Source: a virus. From it: 24,076 nucleotides of DNA. Position numbers and translations under genes: made by a program. Of this stretch, positions 4,157 through 14,308 are shown one piece after another; position 1 is the stretch's first letter; each line of letters begins with the position of its first letter. The stretch spans positions 1 through 24,076 of the IMG/VR virus record IMGVR_UViG_3300027969_000417; one strand, written 5' to 3'. A model generated the notes under the pieces. The model saw only the letters and a program-made list of their open reading frames with translations, ran no database searches and was not told the origin of the DNA.

Positions 4157-4384
4157 ATGAACACACCAACCATGCAAACCATTGAAAACATTAAGGAAAA
4201 AGCTGAGAAGGCTGGCTTCACCATCACTGATGTTGCTCGCTATGCAGGCTTTGACCCATCACAGGTATCTCGCTACGCCACTGGTCGAACCATACCATTG
4301 GTGACTTCAATACAACGCTTGGAAGAATCGGTAGATTCCCTAATCCAGCAGCGTATTGAAGCCTTGAATGGGGGTACAGAATGA
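4157..4384 (+). CDS. XRE-type helix-turn-helix regulator
   Basis: A 75-residue protein with a helix-turn-helix of the phage repressor type: TDVARYAGFDPSQVSRYATG at about residues 24-43, followed by a helix (LVTSIQRLEESVDSLI). There is no C-terminal oligomerisation or peptidase domain, so it is a minimal Cro- or transcription-control-like protein. It is transcribed away from the left operon across a 150-bp control region with a palindromic site, so it probably regulates both directions. It starts the rightward cluster and its end overlaps the resolvase gene by ATGA. A second ATG at 4172 is possible. Confidence 0.8.
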   Translation: MNTPTMQTIENIKEKAEKAGFTITDVARYAGFDPSQVSRYATGRTIPLVTSIQRLEESVDSLIQQRIEALNGGTE

Positions 4385-4872
4385 CCACCACAGTCTTCAC
4401 CCCAAGGCGAATCATTGGCATTGACGTAGGCTTGAATGGCGCTATAGCAATGATGCAAGGCGAAACCTTAACTGGTGTAGTCGATATGCCCACAGTCACG
4501 CTAGACCGCAATGGCAAAGCTAAGAGGCAGATCAGTATCCCCGAACTGATTGCCATTCTTGATCTGTTTAAGCCTGAAGAAGCGTACATAGAGAAGGTGT
4601 TTGCTATGGCAGGGCAAGGGGTAACAAGCGTGTTCTCCTTTGGGCGCTCTCTAGGGGCTATAGAAGGCGTTATAGCGGCAAGATCAATCAAGTCCACTCT
4701 CGTTACTCCACAGACTTGGCAGAAAGCTATGGGAGTCTCAGGCGGCAAAGATGGCGCTAGAGCAAGGGCAATGGAAGTCTTCCCTTGGAATGTTGACCTG
4801 TTCAAACGGGTCAAAGATGATGGCAGAGCAGATGCGGCACTAATAGCAGCTTGGGGGCTAAGACATGGCTAA
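4381..4872 (+). CDS. RuvC-like Holliday junction resolvase
   Basis: A 163-residue RNase H-fold nuclease that would cut branched DNA during recombination, replication or before packaging. The first strand carries IIGIDVGLNGA with the catalytic Asp15; Glu71 follows in AYIEKVF; the C-terminal helix has DDGRADAALIAAW with Asp147 and Asp151. The FGRSLGAIEGV and TPQTWQKAMG segments are also typical of phage and bacterial RuvC relatives. The start overlaps the regulator stop by ATGA. A second, unrelated resolvase-type gene (endonuclease VII) is present at 20625. Confidence 0.88.
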   Translation: MTTTVFTPRRIIGIDVGLNGAIAMMQGETLTGVVDMPTVTLDRNGKAKRQISIPELIAILDLFKPEEAYIEKVFAMAGQGVTSVFSFGRSLGAIEGVIAARSIKSTLVTPQTWQKAMGVSGGKDGARARAMEVFPWNVDLFKRVKDDGRADAALIAAWGLRHG

Positions 4873-5695
4873 TCCATTTAAGATCACAGAGCCAACCTGT
4901 ATCAGCTTCTCAGGCGGTAGGACTTCTGCGTATATGTTGTGGCGTGTACTGGAGGCGCACGGCGGTAAATTGCCTCAAGAAGCGGTTGTTTGCTTTGCTA
5001 ACACTGGCAAGGAAGATGAGGCGACCCTTAAGTTTGTTAATGACTGCTCTGTCAACTGGAATGTGCCAATTACTTGGGTTGAGTATCGGGATGCAGACCC
5101 TGCATTTGTTGTTGTCAATTACGAAACAGCCAGCAGAAATGGAGAACCATTTGAGGCATTGATACGCAAGCGTCAATATTTGCCCAATCCCGTGACAAGA
5201 TTCTGCACTTCTGAATTGAAGATTCGTAGCATCCACAAATATTTGAAATCTACTGGATGGGATGACCATAACGAAACAATGGATTGGATTGGCATGAGGG
5301 CTGATGAGCAGCGTAGAGCAGCCAAGATTGCCGACAAATCAAGGATGCCACTTGTAACTGCTGGCGTTACAAAAGAAACTGTTGGTGAGTTTTGGCGCAA
5401 CCAATCCTTTGATCTTGAACTGCCAAACATTAATGGCGTGACTTATCACGGCAACTGTGATTTATGTTTCCTTAAAGGCGGTTCTCAAGTGTTATCTCTA
5501 ATTGCAGAAAAACCAGAACGTGGTATATGGTGGGCGCGAATGGAGGCACTGGCACTGGCACTGGCAAGCAAGCCAAGCGGTGCGGTGTTCCGTTCCGACA
5601 GGCCATCCTATAAATCCATGATTCAATTTGCGGCTGAACAAAAAGATATGTTCGACCCAAATGAAGAATCTATTGCTTGCTTTTGCGGAGATTAA
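4865..5695 (+). CDS. PAPS reductase / PP-loop family protein
   Basis: A 276-residue protein of the adenine nucleotide alpha-hydrolase class. The PP-loop is SFSGGRTSAYM (residues 14-24). NTGKEDEATLKFV and RFCTSELKIRSIHKYL resemble the PAPS-reductase/DndC branch. Cysteines at about 198 and 201 (NCDLC) and 272 and 274 (ACFCGD) with Cys114 could hold an iron-sulfur cluster. Family members reduce activated sulfate or transfer sulfur, including to DNA; the phage substrate is unknown. It overlaps the resolvase gene by 8 bases. A run of GGCACT repeats at 5545-5566 encodes LALALA. No other dnd-type gene is seen here. Confidence 0.8.
   Translation: MANPFKITEPTCISFSGGRTSAYMLWRVLEAHGGKLPQEAVVCFANTGKEDEATLKFVNDCSVNWNVPITWVEYRDADPAFVVVNYETASRNGEPFEALIRKRQYLPNPVTRFCTSELKIRSIHKYLKSTGWDDHNETMDWIGMRADEQRRAAKIADKSRMPLVTAGVTKETVGEFWRNQSFDLELPNINGVTYHGNCDLCFLKGGSQVLSLIAEKPERGIWWARMEALALALASKPSGAVFRSDRPSYKSMIQFAAEQKDMFDPNEESIACFCGD
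5545..5566. repeat. GGCACT hexamer tandem repeat
   Basis: Three full copies and most of a fourth of GGCACT in a row inside the PAPS-reductase-like gene, coding for alternating Leu and Ala in a helix. The length is a multiple of three in both units, so copy-number change would keep the frame. Confidence 0.85.
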
Positions 5696-5697
5696 TC

Positions 5698-5922
5698 ATG
5701 GATGACAAAGAAAGAAAGACCTTGCGTGAACATATCATTTGGCTAGGCTCACAGCTAGACCAAGAGCGTAGACAAAACCAACACACTATAGTCTTCATCA
5801 AGCGTCTGCTAGACCCTGAAGACTTAGGCCATGCAGTCTCAAATGAGACACGGCAACTCGCCTACCAATTACTCATCGAAAACCACCACATTGAAAGAGC
5901 ATCATGGCAACAAAACAACTAA
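5698..5922 (+). CDS. Small helical hypothetical protein
   Basis: A 74-residue charged, probably all-helical product from ATG 5698, two bases after the preceding stop, with CGGAG about eight bases upstream. It begins MDDKERKTLREHIIWLGSQL and contains several His and Gln residues but no recognisable motif. The end overlaps the nuclease gene by 19 bases. The open frame extends seven codons further up inside the previous gene, without a better start. Confidence 0.65.
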   Translation: MDDKERKTLREHIIWLGSQLDQERRQNQHTIVFIKRLLDPEDLGHAVSNETRQLAYQLLIENHHIERASWQQNN

Positions 5923-6995
5923 GCCTTAGAGCATCAGCGGCATCTAGATGGATTGCCTGCCCCGCCTCTGCCAGACTATCAGCACAAATGCCCTATGTAG
6001 AAGGTGGCGAGGCGGCAAAGATCGGGACTGCCATTCATGCCTTGGCAGAACACTGCTTCAAGGAACAATCAGACCCCATGACCTTTGTCGGCAAAGCCTT
6101 TGAGGGCATCACAATGACTGAGGAGAACTGTGATTTTGCTAAACAATACCTTCACGCTATTTTTAATATATATAACGAGCATGAATGGCATTGTGAAGGT
6201 CTTGTAGAAGAATTCCTACCCTATCAAGACACTCCACAGGTCAAGGTTGGTGGTACTGCTGATTTCATTGGCATTTGCAAATCATGGCGCAAACTCATCA
6301 TTGCAGACCTTAAAACAGGTCGAGGCTATGTCGATGCTGACAGTGAACAATTAAAACTCTACGCATTGGCTGCTCTAGAAGGCGAGAAACTCTATCAAGA
6401 CATAGACACTATAGAACTGTGGATCATCCAACCCCATCATGGTGAGGTACGCAAGCACACAATGACAACGCAAGAGTTGGTGGATTGGGAACATTACGTT
6501 CTAGTCCCTGCAATTGAGAATGCCCTCAACCCTGTATTTCCACCTGTACCCTCGGACTCTGCCTGCCAATACTGTAACGCTAGAACTATCTGCCCTGCAC
6601 AAGCAAATATTGCTGAAGTAGTTGCCACTGCACCACCTGTAGAGATGCTCACAGAAGGTCAAATCAGCGTCTTGCTGACTAAGTTTGATATGGTTGAGGG
6701 CTACATCAAGGCAGTCAGAGAACACGCCTTAAAACGCATGGAATCAGGCTCTGTGATTGATGGATGGCAACTGCAACCCAAACGAGCGTTGAGGTCGTGG
6801 ACAGATGAGAAAGAGGCTTATGCTGGACTTGTTGCCTTGGGACTTGACCCAAAAGAAGTAACGAAGACCGAAATGATTACCCCTGCACAAGCTGAGAAAC
6901 TGCTAACAAAAGACCAAAAGCCTAACCTTGAAGCGTTAACTTCCCGCATATCTAGCGGATTAACGCTTGCAAGGGATAAAGGTTTGACCCAATAA
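5904..6995 (+). CDS. Cas4/RecB-like PD-(D/E)XK nuclease (DUF2800 type)
   Basis: A 363-residue nuclease. GTAIHALAEH gives His45, GGTADF gives Asp120, IIADLKTGRG gives Asp135 and Lys137, and Gln149 starts QLKLYA: the RecB-family order H, D, DxK, Q. Four cysteines, Cys19 (WIACPAS) and Cys221, Cys224, Cys230 (CQYCNARTIC), fit the iron-sulfur cluster of Cas4- and AddB-type nucleases. The C-terminal 130 residues form a helical extension. It probably processes DNA ends for recombination and lies in the replication cluster next to the SSB-like gene. No CRISPR array or cas1/cas2 is present, so adaptation is not implied. Confidence 0.87.
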   Translation: MATKQLSLRASAASRWIACPASARLSAQMPYVEGGEAAKIGTAIHALAEHCFKEQSDPMTFVGKAFEGITMTEENCDFAKQYLHAIFNIYNEHEWHCEGLVEEFLPYQDTPQVKVGGTADFIGICKSWRKLIIADLKTGRGYVDADSEQLKLYALAALEGEKLYQDIDTIELWIIQPHHGEVRKHTMTTQELVDWEHYVLVPAIENALNPVFPPVPSDSACQYCNARTICPAQANIAEVVATAPPVEMLTEGQISVLLTKFDMVEGYIKAVREHALKRMESGSVIDGWQLQPKRALRSWTDEKEAYAGLVALGLDPKEVTKTEMITPAQAEKLLTKDQKPNLEALTSRISSGLTLARDKGLTQ

Positions 6996-7745: not shown

Positions 7746-8006
7746 ATGCCTTACAAAAAACCAAATCTAGATCAAGAAGTTCTTTTTGGAGAACAAGAGT
7801 CGTGGAAAGAAGAATGGCAAGGTATGCCTGAGTTTGAACAAAAGAACCTTTTGCCAACTTATTCAGTGCGTGTGAATTTTGCTTCTTATGAAGATATGCA
7901 AAATTTTGCATCTATGCTTGGTCAAACAATTTCAGTCAAAACTCAATCTATTTGGTATCCCAAGCAGATGCGGGAAGACCTTGCGGGAAAGCGGTATGTT
8001 GAATAA
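7746..8006 (+). CDS. Small hypothetical protein upstream of the glycosyltransferase
   Basis: An 86-residue product from ATG 7746; a GTG one codon earlier is also possible. The N-terminus is acidic and aromatic. The second half (about 38-82, with YSVRVNFASYEDMQNFASML and SIWYPKQ) looks like a compact alpha/beta domain. I recall similar segments next to glycosyltransferases of this type in other phages, without a known function. It overlaps the glycosyltransferase by 11 bases, suggesting a linked role, and is the first gene after the strong terminator. Confidence 0.68.
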   Translation: MPYKKPNLDQEVLFGEQESWKEEWQGMPEFEQKNLLPTYSVRVNFASYEDMQNFASMLGQTISVKTQSIWYPKQMREDLAGKRYVE

Positions 8007-8880
8007 ATACCCCATCTACATTGTCTCTAAGGGGCGGTGGGATAAACGATTGACTGCAAACGCTCTTGACGAAATGGGTGCAGATTACAAAATAATTGTT
8101 GAAAAACAAGAGTTTGAAAACTACGCAAATGCTGTAGGCAAATCAAAGGTTTTAATTCTTCCGCAATCGTATTTGAATGAATACGTTACTTGTGATGATT
8201 TGGGTGACGATAAAGGAAAAGGCGCTGGTGCGGCTAGAAACTTTGCCCTCGACCATAGCAACTCTGACCGCCATTGGGTCATGGATGACAACATGGATGG
8301 CTTTTACCGATTGAATAGAAACTTAAAAGTCAAATGCCTGACCCCTTCAATTTTTAGGGCTGCTGAAGATTTTGTTGACAGGTATGAAAATGTCCCGTTG
8401 GCTGGATTAAATTACGCTATGTTTGCTAAACGTAAAGACAGCCCTCCTCCATTTGTTTTGAATACAAGAATCTATTCCTGTTTGCTGGTTAGCAATTCAA
8501 TAAAGTATCGTTGGGAGGGTCGATACAACGAAGATACACACTTGTCCCTTAGAGTTTTAAAAGATGGCGATTGCACAATTCAATTTAATGCTTTTCTTGC
8601 TAACAAGGTAAGAACTCAAACAATGGCAGGAGGCAATACAGATATGTTTTACGCCAAAGAAGGCACACTTAACAAATCTCAAATGCTTGAAAAACTTCAT
8701 GCAGACTGTGCAAAGGTGGTATGGAAGTTTGATCGGTGGCATCACTTTGTTGATTACAACCAATTCAAAAAAAATCAATTGAAGCGTAAAGCGGGTTGGA
8801 ATTACATTGGCGTAAACAATTACGGAATGAAGCTATATGTGCCGCAACAGCATGGCGAATCCTCACAGAAAGATAACTAA
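7996..8880 (+). CDS. TET-associated-type glycosyltransferase (TAGT)
   Basis: A 294-residue protein with the features I associate with the TAGT family described beside TET/JBP base oxidases in phages: YPIYIVSKGRW at the start, RLTANALDEMGADYKIIVE, GAGAARNFALDHS at about 77-88, and HWVMDDNMDGFYRLN at 93-106, where Asp97-Asp98 would bind the metal and the sugar nucleotide. NEDTHLSLRVL at about 178-188 may hold the catalytic acidic residue. Family members are proposed to glycosylate oxidised DNA bases; the acceptor here is unknown. ATG 7996 was chosen because the longer frame from 7879 runs through the previous gene. It directly abuts the primase gene. Confidence 0.75.
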   Translation: MLNKYPIYIVSKGRWDKRLTANALDEMGADYKIIVEKQEFENYANAVGKSKVLILPQSYLNEYVTCDDLGDDKGKGAGAARNFALDHSNSDRHWVMDDNMDGFYRLNRNLKVKCLTPSIFRAAEDFVDRYENVPLAGLNYAMFAKRKDSPPPFVLNTRIYSCLLVSNSIKYRWEGRYNEDTHLSLRVLKDGDCTIQFNAFLANKVRTQTMAGGNTDMFYAKEGTLNKSQMLEKLHADCAKVVWKFDRWHHFVDYNQFKKNQLKRKAGWNYIGVNNYGMKLYVPQQHGESSQKDN

Positions 8881-10902
8881 ATGTCAGCACAAGAAATAGC
8901 GTCCAGTTTGGGTAACGCAAAGAAGGTAGGCAATGGTTATCTCGCTAGTTGCCCCGTACCCTCTCATGGGCAAGGCAACGGAGACAAGCATCCAAGCCTC
9001 TCTATCTCAATGTCGGATGATGGCAACTTCCTGTTTAAATGTCACAGTGGATGCGATCAGCATACAGTCTTCTCTACCATCAAAGATATGGGACTCTTGC
9101 CTTCCCTTCCTGACAGACCTGACTACCTCGATAGCATCAAACCAATGAAACCAATCCCACTCATCTCTACGCCTGTGCTAGAGCATGAATGGCATTACAC
9201 AGATGAAGAAGGCATCAGCCTGTTTATCAAGCAAAGATTCAAGACCTTTGACTCCAAAGGCAAGACCTATAAGACCTTGAGAGTCATGCCCGATGGCACA
9301 AGAGTTGGCAAGTTAGGAGATTGCCGCCTTGTCCCTTACAAGCTGCCCGAACTGCGACAGGCTACTGCCGCTGGCAGAGTTGTCTACATCACAGAAGGTG
9401 AGAAAGCGGCAGATGCCCTAGGCAGCTTGGGCGTAGTAGCCACAACTTCACACGCTGGTGCTGGTGGTTGGAATGATGAGTTAAACCAATACTTTAAAGA
9501 TGCCAATGTGGTAGTAGTGCCAGATAACGACCTTGTAGGTTGGCATTACGCCCAAAAGGTCACAGAGGCACTCATACCATTTGCAAAGAGCGTCAGAGTC
9601 TTGGACTTGAACCTCAATAATCCCAAAGAAGATGCTTACGAATGGGTCAACAGATATGATGGTTCTCGCACCTTGCTGGCGCAAATAGCGAAAGCCTGTC
9701 CTGTCGTTAAGTCAGCAGATGAAGTCTGGACTCCGCAAAGGCTAAGTCTTTATGTGCCTGAACCTACGCAAGCAGCCGAAGAAGCCACCAAGTCTAGATT
9801 CCTTGTCGAGTCATGGGACAGCATAAAGGATGAACCAGTTGAGTGGCTCATAGAGTCAATCATCCCCAGACGAGCATTTGTAGCACTGTATGCACCACCA
9901 GCATCATTTAAGTCATTCATTGCGCTAGATATTGCAGAAGCAGTGGCGACAGGCAGGGATTGGATGGGCTACAGAGTACCTAAGAAAGGTGCAGTCCTGT
10001 ACATAGCTGGTGAAGGTCACGGCGGTATGGGCGCTAGGGTGAAGGCTTGCAAAATACAGAACAACAGTCCAGATGGCGCAAATCTCTATGTAATACGGGC
10101 TCAAATCAACATCAGATCAAGTCAAGAAGACTTTGATGCCTTAATAGCTGCCATCAATGAACTCATAGCCGAAATAGATGAACCCCTTGAACTCATCATC
10201 TTAGATACCCTGATGAGGATGTCAGGTGGCGGCTTTAACGAGAACTCCTCTGAAGATATGGGTGGTTTCATCACCCAAGCTGGCAAGATTCAAGCAATCT
10301 ACCTGTGCGCCATGTTGCTGATTCACCATAGCGGTAAAGACATAACGAAAGGTCTGCGAGGACACTCAAGCCTGTTAGGTGCTGTAGACACTGAACTTGA
10401 GATACAGCGTCAGGATTCGGTTATCAATTCGGCAGATACCTCAGTTGTAGGTAACGCAATCCTGACTGTAACCAAGCAAAAGGATGGAGCGGACTCCATA
10501 ACTGTAGGCATCGAAGTGGTGAATGTTGAGATCGGTGAGTCAGCCTTGGGTTTCGAGATCATCACTTCATTAGCCGTAAGACCTAACCCTGAGATCGCTA
10601 ACAGCAGACCAAAAGGGACTAAAAACAACTCAGGTAGCGGTGGAAATCAGAAGATTGAGTTGGATTCTCTCTACAAAGCAATTAAGTCTAAAGGCTCATA
10701 TCGTGTAGTAGATGGTTCTAGTAGGTTTGGCGTGAGTTTGGATGATTGGAAGGATGAATTTTGGAGCATGAAGGGCTGTACAGAGGATGATAAGGCTGCT
10801 TTTAAGAAGGCTTGGCTACGGGCAAGGGAGAGACTTGTAGCCGTGAATAAGGTTGTAATTGGGTCTGGTTGGGTGTGGCTGAAGTCTGCACTAGAGACAT
10901 GA
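8881..10902 (+). CDS. Primase-helicase: zinc finger, TOPRIM and RepA-like ATPase
   Basis: A 673-residue replication protein. Cys24, His29, Cys54 and Cys58 (SCPVPSH and FKCHSGCDQ) form a primase-type zinc site. A TOPRIM-like region follows at about 165-235, with VVYITEGEKAADAL (Glu172) and VVPDND (215-217). The ATPase domain has a variant Walker A, APPASFKS (338-345), and Walker B LELIILDT (Asp442), and a later IHHSGKD segment, as in RepA/DnaB-related helicases. It would prime and unwind DNA at the fork. The start follows the glycosyltransferase stop with no gap. A repeat-rich structured element comes after it, and the candidate origin lies 1.2 kb downstream. Confidence 0.88.
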   Translation: MSAQEIASSLGNAKKVGNGYLASCPVPSHGQGNGDKHPSLSISMSDDGNFLFKCHSGCDQHTVFSTIKDMGLLPSLPDRPDYLDSIKPMKPIPLISTPVLEHEWHYTDEEGISLFIKQRFKTFDSKGKTYKTLRVMPDGTRVGKLGDCRLVPYKLPELRQATAAGRVVYITEGEKAADALGSLGVVATTSHAGAGGWNDELNQYFKDANVVVVPDNDLVGWHYAQKVTEALIPFAKSVRVLDLNLNNPKEDAYEWVNRYDGSRTLLAQIAKACPVVKSADEVWTPQRLSLYVPEPTQAAEEATKSRFLVESWDSIKDEPVEWLIESIIPRRAFVALYAPPASFKSFIALDIAEAVATGRDWMGYRVPKKGAVLYIAGEGHGGMGARVKACKIQNNSPDGANLYVIRAQINIRSSQEDFDALIAAINELIAEIDEPLELIILDTLMRMSGGGFNENSSEDMGGFITQAGKIQAIYLCAMLLIHHSGKDITKGLRGHSSLLGAVDTELEIQRQDSVINSADTSVVGNAILTVTKQKDGADSITVGIEVVNVEIGESALGFEIITSLAVRPNPEIANSRPKGTKNNSGSGGNQKIELDSLYKAIKSKGSYRVVDGSSRFGVSLDDWKDEFWSMKGCTEDDKAAFKKAWLRARERLVAVNKVVIGSGWVWLKSALET

Positions 10903-11044: not shown

Positions 11045-11058
11045 AAGGAGTTATGAAA

Positions 11059-11715
11059 ATGGTTAGATCAAGGTCGAGAAAAGATGTTCCTGAAGTTATC
11101 AAGCCAGCTAGACAGGCAACGCAGTGGGAGATTCAGTCTAACGCTGTGCTGGTAGAACTTGAACGTAAAAAGGGTCAGCACTACGAGAAATGGGGAGTTG
11201 ACCGATTGATTACTTTAGTTGACATTGAGTTTAGGACTAAGGTTTGGCTGCAAATGGGTAGAGTTTGGGATGCACTGGATATGGGTGACCTCGACAAGCT
11301 GCATAAAGCAGTTAACGGGATGTGCAAAGGATTTGATGCGTTGGAGAAGTGGGCTTTGGAAAATGAGATTGAACCCAACCCGCCCATCCAGTTCCTTGAA
11401 TGGAAGTCAGTCCGAGGAGTTCCGATGGTGGTGGTCAGAACAGAGAACGATGCGGTTGAACTCCAGACCCACCGCAAAGACATCAACAACGGCAACATCT
11501 GGACATTAGAAGAACTTGAGTTATTCCTGCAAGAGCCACAGGTGCAGACCATCATCAAGGCTAAAGCCCTGTCCCCAACTGCAAGGATGACTAAGTTCAC
11601 GCCCAAGGAAGGATTCGGTCAAGGTTCAGGCTTTGATGACATGGAAGAAGACCTAGATGCGATCTTCTCTGGTGAGCCTTATGAAGCTAAGTACAAGCCT
11701 ATTGGGACTAAGTAA
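11059..11715 (+). CDS. Conserved-looking phage protein of unknown function
   Basis: A 218-residue, mostly helical protein with a basic N-terminus, a central region (about 30-95) rich in aromatic residues and an acidic C-terminal part (FDDMEEDLDAIFSGEPY). AAGGAG at 11045-11050 is eight bases before ATG 11059; the ATG at 11053 is only two bases from it and so is less likely. No nuclease, ATPase or membrane motif is visible. It follows the GACAAA element and overlaps the next gene by one base (TAATG). A role in replication or in morphogenesis is possible from position, but I do not know the family. Confidence 0.75.
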   Translation: MVRSRSRKDVPEVIKPARQATQWEIQSNAVLVELERKKGQHYEKWGVDRLITLVDIEFRTKVWLQMGRVWDALDMGDLDKLHKAVNGMCKGFDALEKWALENEIEPNPPIQFLEWKSVRGVPMVVVRTENDAVELQTHRKDINNGNIWTLEELELFLQEPQVQTIIKAKALSPTARMTKFTPKEGFGQGSGFDDMEEDLDAIFSGEPYEAKYKPIGTK

Positions 11716-11963
11716 TGAATCGTGGTGGTAGACCGCCGAGCATCAACTCACGCTGGTTCTATCGTGAGTTAACCATGCCAGACAAGATCATCCTAGCTTG
11801 TGCTGGCGATGGGAACATCTCTGACGGGTTTAGAAACGTACTTGACGCCTATCAAGTCTTATGGAATTGCGGATACCGCCCTACAGTCGATTTATACGAT
11901 TTCCTTGGGGTAGATAAGGACAGCATAGAAAAGTCTGTTACAGGCGATTCTGAGGCTTCCTAA
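11715..11963 (+). CDS. Small hypothetical protein before the candidate origin
   Basis: An 82-residue product whose ATG overlaps the preceding stop by one base. It has a basic start (MNRGGRPPSINSRWFYREL) and a middle with a helical pattern (VLDAYQVLWNCGYRPTVDLYDFL). No family recognised. It is the last gene of the rightward replication cluster. Confidence 0.65.
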   Translation: MNRGGRPPSINSRWFYRELTMPDKIILACAGDGNISDGFRNVLDAYQVLWNCGYRPTVDLYDFLGVDKDSIEKSVTGDSEAS

Positions 11964-12288
11964 AGGCATTAACACTAGCGGTTTTGGCACTGGTTAACGA
12001 GAAACCTAGAAGTGCATAACAAATGCGTTTGATATAACCAAAAGTCCTTATGATTTAAAGTAGTCAAGTCCCCCAATAATGCACCACCCGCCTCTTTTCC
12101 TCTCCACCACCGCCCAGAAAATCCTTTTCAGAATGCGAAATATAAAAGTTATCCACAGGTTATCCATAGATCGGAAGGCAAGTTATCCACATTTTGCCTA
12201 TTTGGTTTCATTTCCAGTTGCAATTTGCAGATGCGTGTAATGCTTTCAGATATTTAAAGTTAACATAATGAACATTGTATAAAGCCGA

Positions 12289-12321
12289 TTTTGTAAGCAA
12301 TCTGTAAGCGTTTTGTAAAAG
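12289..12321 (+). repeat. Three 11-bp iteron-like repeats
   Basis: TGTAAGC, TGTAAGC and TGTAAAA start at 12292, 12303 and 12314, exactly 11 bases apart, within a longer shared pattern (TTTTGTAAGC-like). Helically phased repeats beside DnaA boxes resemble iterons or the 13-mers of bacterial origins. Confidence 0.55.
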
Positions 12322-12359
12322 TCCAATGGAATCAACAACTTACAGAAGTTATCCACAGA

Positions 12360-12379
12360 ATCCACAGATGCCTGTGGAT
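12360..12379. repeat. 8-bp perfect hairpin containing a DnaA box
   Basis: ATCCACAG at 12360-12367 pairs with CTGTGGAT at 12372-12379 around an ATGC loop. The right arm belongs to the inverted DnaA box. Confidence 0.7.
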
Positions 12380-12480
12380 AACTGTCTTATCATTTTGATA
12401 GGGGGGAGGGGGTGGTCGCTGGTCGTGATAATTGTGGGAGCCTCTGCCCCCCTGAAAAAGCGAAATTGAAAAAAAAATAG

Positions 12481-12557
12481 GTGTTGGCGCAGGGAGTTCC
12501 GATATCGCAACAAGATAACAATAGGAGTTATAAGTTTCGGGTACTATGCGCCAACGC
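12481..12557. repeat. Long-range inverted repeat before terS
   Basis: GTTGGCGCA at 12483-12491 is the exact complement of TGCGCCAAC at 12547-12555; one wobble and one further pair extend it to 12481 and 12557. The arms are 55 bases apart, and a GATATC palindrome lies between. Its place directly upstream of the terminase small-subunit gene is where pac or cos sites are often found. Confidence 0.55.
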
Positions 12558-12586
12558 TGATAACTCTAGCATATTACCCTCGTATT

Positions 12587-12595
12587 TGCTATAGT
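12587..12595 (+). promoter_or_regulatory. Extended -10 promoter candidate for the head genes
   Basis: TGCTATAGT fits an extended -10 element (TGn plus a near-consensus TATAAT). No good -35 box is present. Transcription would start near 12602, 32 bases before the GTG of terS. Confidence 0.35.
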
Positions 12596-12633
12596 CCCCC
12601 CCAACATCACGCCCACAACTCTCAAGGACAATC

Positions 12634-13056
12634 GTGAAGATAGAGCAAATGGACAGCATCCAAGATGAGGCAGAACCAACCAAGAAAAAGGCTGGCAGAC
12701 CCAAGGGCGTATTCAAACTCAAGCGTCAGATACAGGAGTACGCAAGGAATCCTGACTTAGCGTTACCCAAAACCGATAACCAAAGAATCAAAGACTTGAA
12801 GGATATGCTTATCAGGTCGAGTGGCAAGGATGTTGTCGAGAAGATGATCTCAATAGCGTTGAACGACAATCATCCTGCTCAAATGGCAGCTATCAAGATG
12901 TGTGTAGACCGCACCCTTCCCGTGAGTATGTTTGAGAAGGATAAGAGCCAGAGGAGTGCAATCCACATTAATATCACTGGCATAGGCGCACCAGTAGCGG
13001 CGACAGTTGAAGAAGAACCTAAAGACATAGAAGACATAGAGGCTAAAGATGGCTGA
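12634..13056 (+). CDS. terS: Terminase small subunit
   Basis: A 140-residue protein starting at GTG 12634, with AAGGA at 12624-12628 five bases away; an ATG at 12649 lies too far from that site. The N-terminal part is basic with a GRPKG motif (KKKAGRPKGVFKLKRQI), suited to DNA contact, the middle is helical, and the C-terminal end is acidic. Size, composition and an 8-base overlap with the large subunit gene identify it as the small subunit, which recognises the packaging site and loads the motor. The sequence itself is not strongly diagnostic. The inverted repeat upstream may be its target. Confidence 0.78.
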   Translation: MKIEQMDSIQDEAEPTKKKAGRPKGVFKLKRQIQEYARNPDLALPKTDNQRIKDLKDMLIRSSGKDVVEKMISIALNDNHPAQMAAIKMCVDRTLPVSMFEKDKSQRSAIHINITGIGAPVAATVEEEPKDIEDIEAKDG

Positions 13057-14308
13057 CCTGAACTTTGCGCTATTGCCTTGGCAGCAACAGGTATACGCTG
13101 ATAAGACGAGGTTCAAGGTTGTGGTAGCTGGCAGGCGGTGCGGTAAGTCTAGGTTAGCGGTTACTACGCTATTGATTGAGGGTTTAAGCTGCCCTGCTGG
13201 TAGTGCGGTGCTGTATGTTGCCCCTACTCAGGGGCAGGCTCGGCAAATTGTTTGGGATGTATTGCTTGATGTAGGCAGGGAGATTATCCAAAGCAGCCAT
13301 GTCAACAACATGGAAGTTACCTTGATTAACGGGGCAAAGATATATGTAAGGGGCAGCGACAGACCCGACACATTGCGGGGAGTCTCATTGACTTACGCTG
13401 TATTGGATGAGGTTGCTGACATTAAGCCTGAGACTTGGGAACAGGTCATTAGGGCAAGTTTGTCAGACAAAAAGGGTAAAGCCATGTTTATCGGCACACC
13501 CAAGGGGCGCAACTGGTTCTTTGACTTGTATAACTTAGGTCAAGAGGGGAGTGATCCTGATTGGAAGTCGTGGCACTTTACGACAGCAGACAACCCACTT
13601 ATTGACCCTAGCGAGATTGAGAGTGCGAAGAAAACCCTAAGTTCATTCGCCTTCAAGCAAGAGTATATGGCAAGTTTCTCAAATGCGGGGTCAGATGTCT
13701 TCAAGGAAGAATGGATTAAATACGGGGAAGAACCTGAGCATGGTTCTTACTTCATAGCCTGTGACTTAGCTGGATTTGAAGAAGTAGCTAGACAGGCGGC
13801 TAACTCCAAGAAAAGGCTAGACCAGACTGCCATTGCTGTAGTCAAGGTGACTGAAGATGGCAAATGGTTTGTAAAAGAGATTGCTTTTGGGCGTTGGGAC
13901 ATCAGGGAGACTGCTGCCACGATTCTGCTAAAGATGCGGGAATACCGACCTTTAAGCGTTGGAATTGAGCGAGGAGCATTAAAAAACGCTGTTTTGCCGT
14001 ATTTGTCAGACTTAATGCGGAAAAATAATGTATATTCCCATATAGTTGACTTAACGCATGGCAACAGGAAAAAGACTGACAGGATTATCTGGAGTCTCCA
14101 AGGAAGGTTTGAGCATGGGCGCATTGTGCTGAACTCTGAGGAAGATTGGGATGAATTCAAAGATCAACTCTTGATGTTTCCCGCCCAAGGTGTTCACGAT
14201 GACTTACCCGATGCTCTTTCCTACATTGACCAACTGGCTGTGACCTCATACTTTGTTGATGACCAAGAAGATGAGTGGGAGCCTCTAGATATTATTTCGG
14301 GGATATAA
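13049..14308 (+). CDS. terL: Terminase large subunit
   Basis: A 419-residue DNA-packaging motor with ATPase and nuclease domains. Walker A is AGRRCGKS (27-34); Walker B is AVLDEVAD with Asp120 and Glu121; FIGTPKGRNWF at about 147-157 is the coupling motif. The RNase H-like nuclease begins with FIACDLAG, continues with VGIERGAL and ends with HDDLPDALSY, which supply the metal-binding acidic residues. It cuts concatemeric DNA and drives it into the prohead through the portal encoded next. It has GAGG six bases upstream and overlaps terS by 8 bases. The length is on the short side but complete. Confidence 0.95.
   Translation: MADLNFALLPWQQQVYADKTRFKVVVAGRRCGKSRLAVTTLLIEGLSCPAGSAVLYVAPTQGQARQIVWDVLLDVGREIIQSSHVNNMEVTLINGAKIYVRGSDRPDTLRGVSLTYAVLDEVADIKPETWEQVIRASLSDKKGKAMFIGTPKGRNWFFDLYNLGQEGSDPDWKSWHFTTADNPLIDPSEIESAKKTLSSFAFKQEYMASFSNAGSDVFKEEWIKYGEEPEHGSYFIACDLAGFEEVARQAANSKKRLDQTAIAVVKVTEDGKWFVKEIAFGRWDIRETAATILLKMREYRPLSVGIERGALKNAVLPYLSDLMRKNNVYSHIVDLTHGNRKKTDRIIWSLQGRFEHGRIVLNSEEDWDEFKDQLLMFPAQGVHDDLPDALSYIDQLAVTSYFVDDQEDEWEPLDIISGI

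Follow-up and report, generated by a model that had tools for sequence, protein, structure and literature searches.

DnaA-dependent origins of plasmids and phages are already known. The parts of E. coli oriC include DnaA boxes, an IHF consensus and TTGT in the DNA unwinding element (DUE), the last being needed for DnaA to bind the single-stranded DUE (PMC5742627). In plasmid P1 the DnaA boxes form two arrays, one of which has an IHF site next to it (PMC4980987), and DnaA boxes have been predicted in the origin of the Pseudomonas phage vB_PseuGesM_254 (PMC11512268). The datA locus, which is not an origin, is made up of DnaA boxes and a single IHF site lying between these (PMC5742627).

The region analysed here (12149-12381) lies in an IMG/VR virus record of 24,076 bp, hereafter the window, and is probably an oriC-like origin, at which host DnaA and IHF would open the DNA of a phage without a recognisable initiator. 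In common with E. coli oriC it has two box arrays, an exact IHF consensus, a weak AT-rich stretch with TTGT and a conserved geometry. Unlike oriC, it is phage-borne, spans about 230 bp and adjoins terminase genes rather than the chromosomal oriC neighbours; moreover, the putative DUE lies between the arrays with a dif-like site inside it, and the helicase-primase is phage-encoded. It shares with P1 oriR the two arrays, the IHF site by one of them and the setting of a phage genome predicted to use host DnaA. Membership of the P1 oriR type, to which the first-pass annotation likened the region, is not supported: the scanned window proteins include no RepA-type or other Rep initiator, long iterons are absent, with only two short TGTAAG repeats present, and ParA (PF13614) had no match in 12 records. 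The DnaA-regulating loci datA and DARS likewise combine DnaA boxes with an IHF site, but differ from the present locus in its phage location, its weak AT-rich stretch and its replacement by repeats in phages with an O-like initiator. The vB_PseuGesM_254 origin rests on one software prediction; the present one has in addition its conservation, its linkage to a replication module and a match to the IHF consensus.

The window and its genes

The window encodes a primase-helicase, an exonuclease, a RuvC-like resolvase, the terminase large subunit (TerL), a portal and a major head protein (Table 1). The origin region is located within a 670-bp gap without genes (11964-12633), which bears out the earlier description of a long gene-free region. 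The product of orfA, conserved with 33–98% identity across 37 loci, could not be assigned to a family by family searches; a fold search gave no solved-structure match at E <= 0.001, and its structural matches were only uncharacterised or unnamed viral proteins, plus one annotated TerS. Family searches also gave no match for the products of orfB and of the probable terS. The window proteins that were scanned gave no match to a Rep family.

Two further gene products were noted. A TET-associated glycosyltransferase (PF20691) at 7879-8880 suggests a phage DNA with modified bases. The 276-aa protein at 4865-5695, also found in some relatives, has conserved cysteines and an SGGRTSAYML motif; it has no Pfam match and may be PAPS-reductase-like.

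Table 1. Coordinates of features in the window and, where a locus is named, in related contigs
Feature	Position	Strand	Remarks
RuvC-like resolvase	4381-4872		weak match
Exonuclease	5904-6995
Primase-helicase	8881-10902	+	primase profile matches and an AAA_25/RepA-like helicase domain
orfA	11053-11715	+	220 aa; conserved together with the origin module
orfB	11715-11963	+	82-aa ORF left of the origin
DnaA box B1	12149-12157	+	TTATCCACA, exact; exact in 36/47 aligned relatives
DnaA box B2	12160-12168	+	near match TTATCCATA in the window
DnaA box B3	12183-12191	+	TTATCCACA, exact
AT-rich, least stable stretch	12247-12296		candidate DUE; nearest-neighbour stability
dif-like site	12258-12285	-	GCTTTATACAA-TGTTCA-TTATGTTAACT, 28 bp; inside the AT-rich stretch
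Two TGTAAG repeats	12292-12308	+	11 bp apart
IHF-consensus site	12330-12342	+	AATCAACAACTTA (WATCAANNNNTTR); exact consensus match
DnaA box B4	12349-12357	+	TTATCCACA, exact; 34/47 aligned relatives
Weak or half box	12358-12366	+	xxATCCACA; ATCCACA kept in most B4-bearing relatives
DnaA box B5	12373-12381	-	TTATCCACA, exact; 36/47 aligned relatives
G-tract	12400-12412	+	AGGGGGGAGGGGG; kept in box-less TerL-sharing relatives, absent in L068 group
Probable terminase small subunit (terS)	12634-13056	+	by position; adjoins TerL in all relatives
TerL	13049-14308	+
Iteron-like repeats	L119:4575-4668; L105:4960-5086; L145:5160-5215		GTTAGTnAGTGCTTACT; phages with an O-like replication protein

DnaA boxes

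Four exact TTATCCACA boxes occur within 233 bp and none elsewhere in the window, where 0.26 would be expected; none of 100 shuffles reached four. The region thus contains a cluster of consensus DnaA boxes, as in oriC-type origins, above chance. The four exact boxes and one near match of the first-pass annotation were all recovered, and the same boxes are present in related phages, dozens of contigs keeping the fixed register +0, +11, +34, +200 and +224 (minus), sometimes with +253 (minus). Box number, orientation and spacing are conserved within the family, while number and orientation differ between groups; the L180-type group, for example, has a single exact box with near-consensus ones. At the B2 position the window is the exception, since 45 of the 47 aligned relatives have an exact TTATCCACA there. 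B3 reads TTATCCACA in 35 of these relatives, TTATGCACA in 8 and TTGTCCACA in 3, and box substitutions in general are mainly these two variants, with changes at box positions 5 and 3.

In 13 longer family records (29–41 kb), the exact boxes are located in the origin cluster; record G009 has two box clusters about 33 kb apart. The primase-origin region occurs twice, about 33 kb apart and with differing sequence, in IMGVR_UViG_3300028025_001978 (41,153 bp), the one contig that holds both L049 and L111; this is probably a strain-switched assembly exceeding one genome length. A turn of GC skew at the site, proposed earlier as a check, is absent from near-complete relatives; GC skew says little here because nearly all genes point one way.

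At least 29 other viral-contig loci that lack the proteins of this phage family (L302, L316, L320, L323, L336, L351, L356 and others) also have tandem TTATCCACA arrays, so that the earlier view of such an origin as uncommon for a phage was overstated. Part of these contigs may be plasmids. A search of 300 genomes from a single bacterial order found no tandem boxes.

AT-rich stretch and IHF-consensus site

The AT-rich stretch reported beside the boxes was confirmed: positions 12240-12320 are 73% AT, compared with 55% for the window, and only 0.15% of the 50-bp stretches of the window are weaker than 12247-12296. This easily melted DNA, such as oriC-type origins have beside their boxes, sits between the left (B1–B3) and right (B4–B5) arrays and contains TTGT three times. 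Three 11-bp phased repeats had been described; they are present (TGTAAG at 12292 and 12303, TGTAAA at 12314), but conservation is limited to the first two. There are no long iterons between the boxes.

An IHF-type bend site, predicted to bind IHF, is located between the box groups as in proteobacterial oriC. The consensus used is that of E. coli oriC (PMC5742627), and was matched in 41/41 intact aligned relatives with variation only at the N and R positions; part of the distant L068 group has a GATCAA variant. The match is moderate evidence, since the motif was picked out post hoc and arises by chance about 0.2 times per kb. The host's own DnaA box and its possession of IHF are assumed. The TGTAAG repeats, together with an inverted CTTACA inside the IHF match, could alternatively be the target of a phage protein such as that of orfA.

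Linkage to the replication module

Primase and terminase searches yielded 160 viral-contig loci. The box-bearing phages form a large uncultured group of tailed phages, mostly from lake water. Among loci with a homologous TerL, two or more boxes were present in 63 of the 64 with the primase module and orfA and in 0 of the 43 with an O-like initiation module, some contigs being counted twice. Box-less relatives with a TerL 86–90% identical keep the nearby G-tract, and just to its left, at the place of the boxes, they have GTTAGTnAGTGCTTACT repeats (four copies in L119) with replication-initiation proteins encoded upstream. These repeats are a candidate alternative origin in the O-like phages. 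Conversely, the distant L068 group, whose primase is about 50% identical and whose terminase genes have no match to those of the window at the cut-off used, keeps the boxes, the AT-rich core and the IHF-like site but not the G-tract. These two sets of relatives indicate that the boxes travel with the replication module, whereas the G-tract stays with the terminase. The G-tract stands beside terS, its right flank is conserved, and it is a candidate packaging or late-gene element. A cos site was considered and rejected, contig ends being scattered and not on one base.

The earlier reading of a DnaA-box origin is thus supported, at the level of sequence, by the conservation of the boxes, their linkage to the replication module, the IHF-consensus site and the low stability of the AT-rich stretch.

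dif-like site

The most conserved block of the region is 12258-12285. It has the 28-bp 11-6-11 layout of XerCD sites with a TTATGTTAA-type XerD arm, and recombination at it is predicted. The same layout and XerD-like arm, as well as variable central six bases, are common to dif, psi (pSC101), cer (ColE1) and the attP of dif-integrating phages; here too a host recombinase is presumed. In Burkholderiales, dif sites are mostly nnnnCGnATAA-TGTATA-TTATGTTAAAT. The 19-bp core is identical to Burkholderiales dif at 16/19 positions, the best score in the window and one reached in 1 of 300 simulated windows, and the 28-bp site agrees with one Burkholderiales dif at 21/28 positions overall. The XerC arm agrees with dif at 6/9 core positions, counted by eye, and diverges from known XerCD sites (TTTATACAA vs TTCGTATAA). 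The likeness to E. coli dif and pSC101 psi serves as a lead only.

Both primase groups retain the XerD-like arm, with variation at the six central positions, which is the pattern expected of Xer sites, although the search behind this comparison itself required the TTATGTTAA arm; independent column counts give GTTAACATAATG as above 90% conserved. No identical copy of the phage site was found in 398 Pseudomonadota genomes sampled. Dif-like blocks without DnaA boxes were seen in L181, L183, L193, L213, L225, L230, L242, L246 and L257. In this other phage group, which has different replication proteins, the block is nearly unchanged, and in L183 and L230 it comes directly after the O-like initiator gene. 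The occurrence of the core without boxes (L181, L183, L230) indicates that the origin region is not one indivisible unit; most box-less O-like relatives have no good dif-like site despite a homologous terminase, so that the core is found mainly together with boxes.

The dif-like site suggests multimer resolution or a plasmid-like phase. The dif-using phages in the literature searched are filamentous or non-tailed (PMC5357621, PMC9966536). An integrating prophage at dif (IMEX) should have relatives in bacterial chromosomes, but 84,980 species genomes gave primase matches only (27–34% identity), and no close prophage or plasmid relatives were found in bacterial genomes or plasmids. The origin DNA had no match among named plasmids and two short matches (43 bp) to Streptomyces phages among named phages. 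In 12 records, searches for DnaA, for an integrase and, among the polymerase and partition families, for family A polymerase and ParA (PF13614) gave no match. For the plasmid-like stage entertained in the first-pass annotation, the dif-like site therefore speaks in favour; against it stand the absence of partition and integrase genes from these searches and of close relatives from bacterial genomes or plasmids.

Alternative explanations

Because the phage region has the box and IHF-site combination of datA, which promotes DnaA-ATP hydrolysis, it might be a sink that titrates or inactivates host DnaA and halts host initiation, with phage replication starting elsewhere. This is unlikely. As would suit an origin swap, iteron-like repeats take the place of the boxes precisely in phages with an O-like initiator; the two arrays are separated by weak AT-rich DNA; and with four to six boxes per genome a phage would offer a small sink before it reaches a high copy number. 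A distinctly unlikely arrangement is one in which the dif-like core is the functional heart, DnaA and IHF acting as architectural factors in the way of PepA, ArgR and ArcA at cer and psi, and the origin lies elsewhere. The 16/19 match, the kept XerD-like arm with its varying centre and the near identity of the core in the box-less group would all agree with it, but we know of no Xer site that depends on DnaA, most box-less O-like relatives do without a good dif-like site, and boxes tend to be present where the phage has no initiator of its own.

The position of the region at the junction of early and late genes would suit a promoter at which DnaA regulates late genes, and TTGACT-17-TATTAA occurs in the core of some relatives (L039). 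That reading is very improbable, given that the window scan gave no sigma-70-like site above chance, that conservation is higher in the spacer than in the hexamers and that the region is linked to the replication module rather than to late genes. A terminator scan also gave nothing above chance. Repeats directly upstream of terS (12634) could also be bound by the small terminase in a packaging (pac/cos) or terminase-regulatory region; this we consider most improbable, as relatives with nearly the same TerL have no boxes yet keep the G-tract, and phages whose terminase genes do not match those of the window have kept the boxes.

Proposed mechanism and significance

For the oriC-like origin we infer the following course. 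Host DnaA would bind the two arrays, B1–B3 on the left and B4–B5 on the right, which an IHF-type bend at 12330-12342 would join. DnaA would then melt the weak AT-rich stretch at about 12240-12320, where the TTGT and TGTAAG motifs may keep it bound to single-stranded DNA. Loading of the phage primase-helicase (8881-10902) would follow, possibly with the orfA product as partner, although a role of orfA in helicase loading is a guess, and the host DNA polymerase would extend. At the dif-like site, host XerC/XerD would probably reduce multimers of the genome, circular or concatemeric, to single units.

More broadly, we tentatively put forward the possibility that widespread, integrase-free tailed phages gave up their own initiator for a replicon operated by host DnaA and IHF, with a XerCD site inside the unwinding element, and that in sister phages an O-like initiator with its own repeats came in exchange for this unit, at the corresponding spot to the left of the terminase. 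Judged by the open-licence literature searched, three things are new: a conserved oriC-like unit in phages that lack an initiator of their own, the swapping of this unit with an iteron-like one in the same position, and a dif-like site embedded in an origin.

If the proposed mechanism is right, replication of these phages would be started by the host's tightly timed initiator and tied to the DnaA state of the host. The terminase-sharing relatives with different origin types constitute a natural experiment in the trading of a private initiator for that of the host. The Xer-like site, a precise 28-bp target, would by its place inside the origin suggest a circular, plasmid-like phase in apparently strictly lytic phages.
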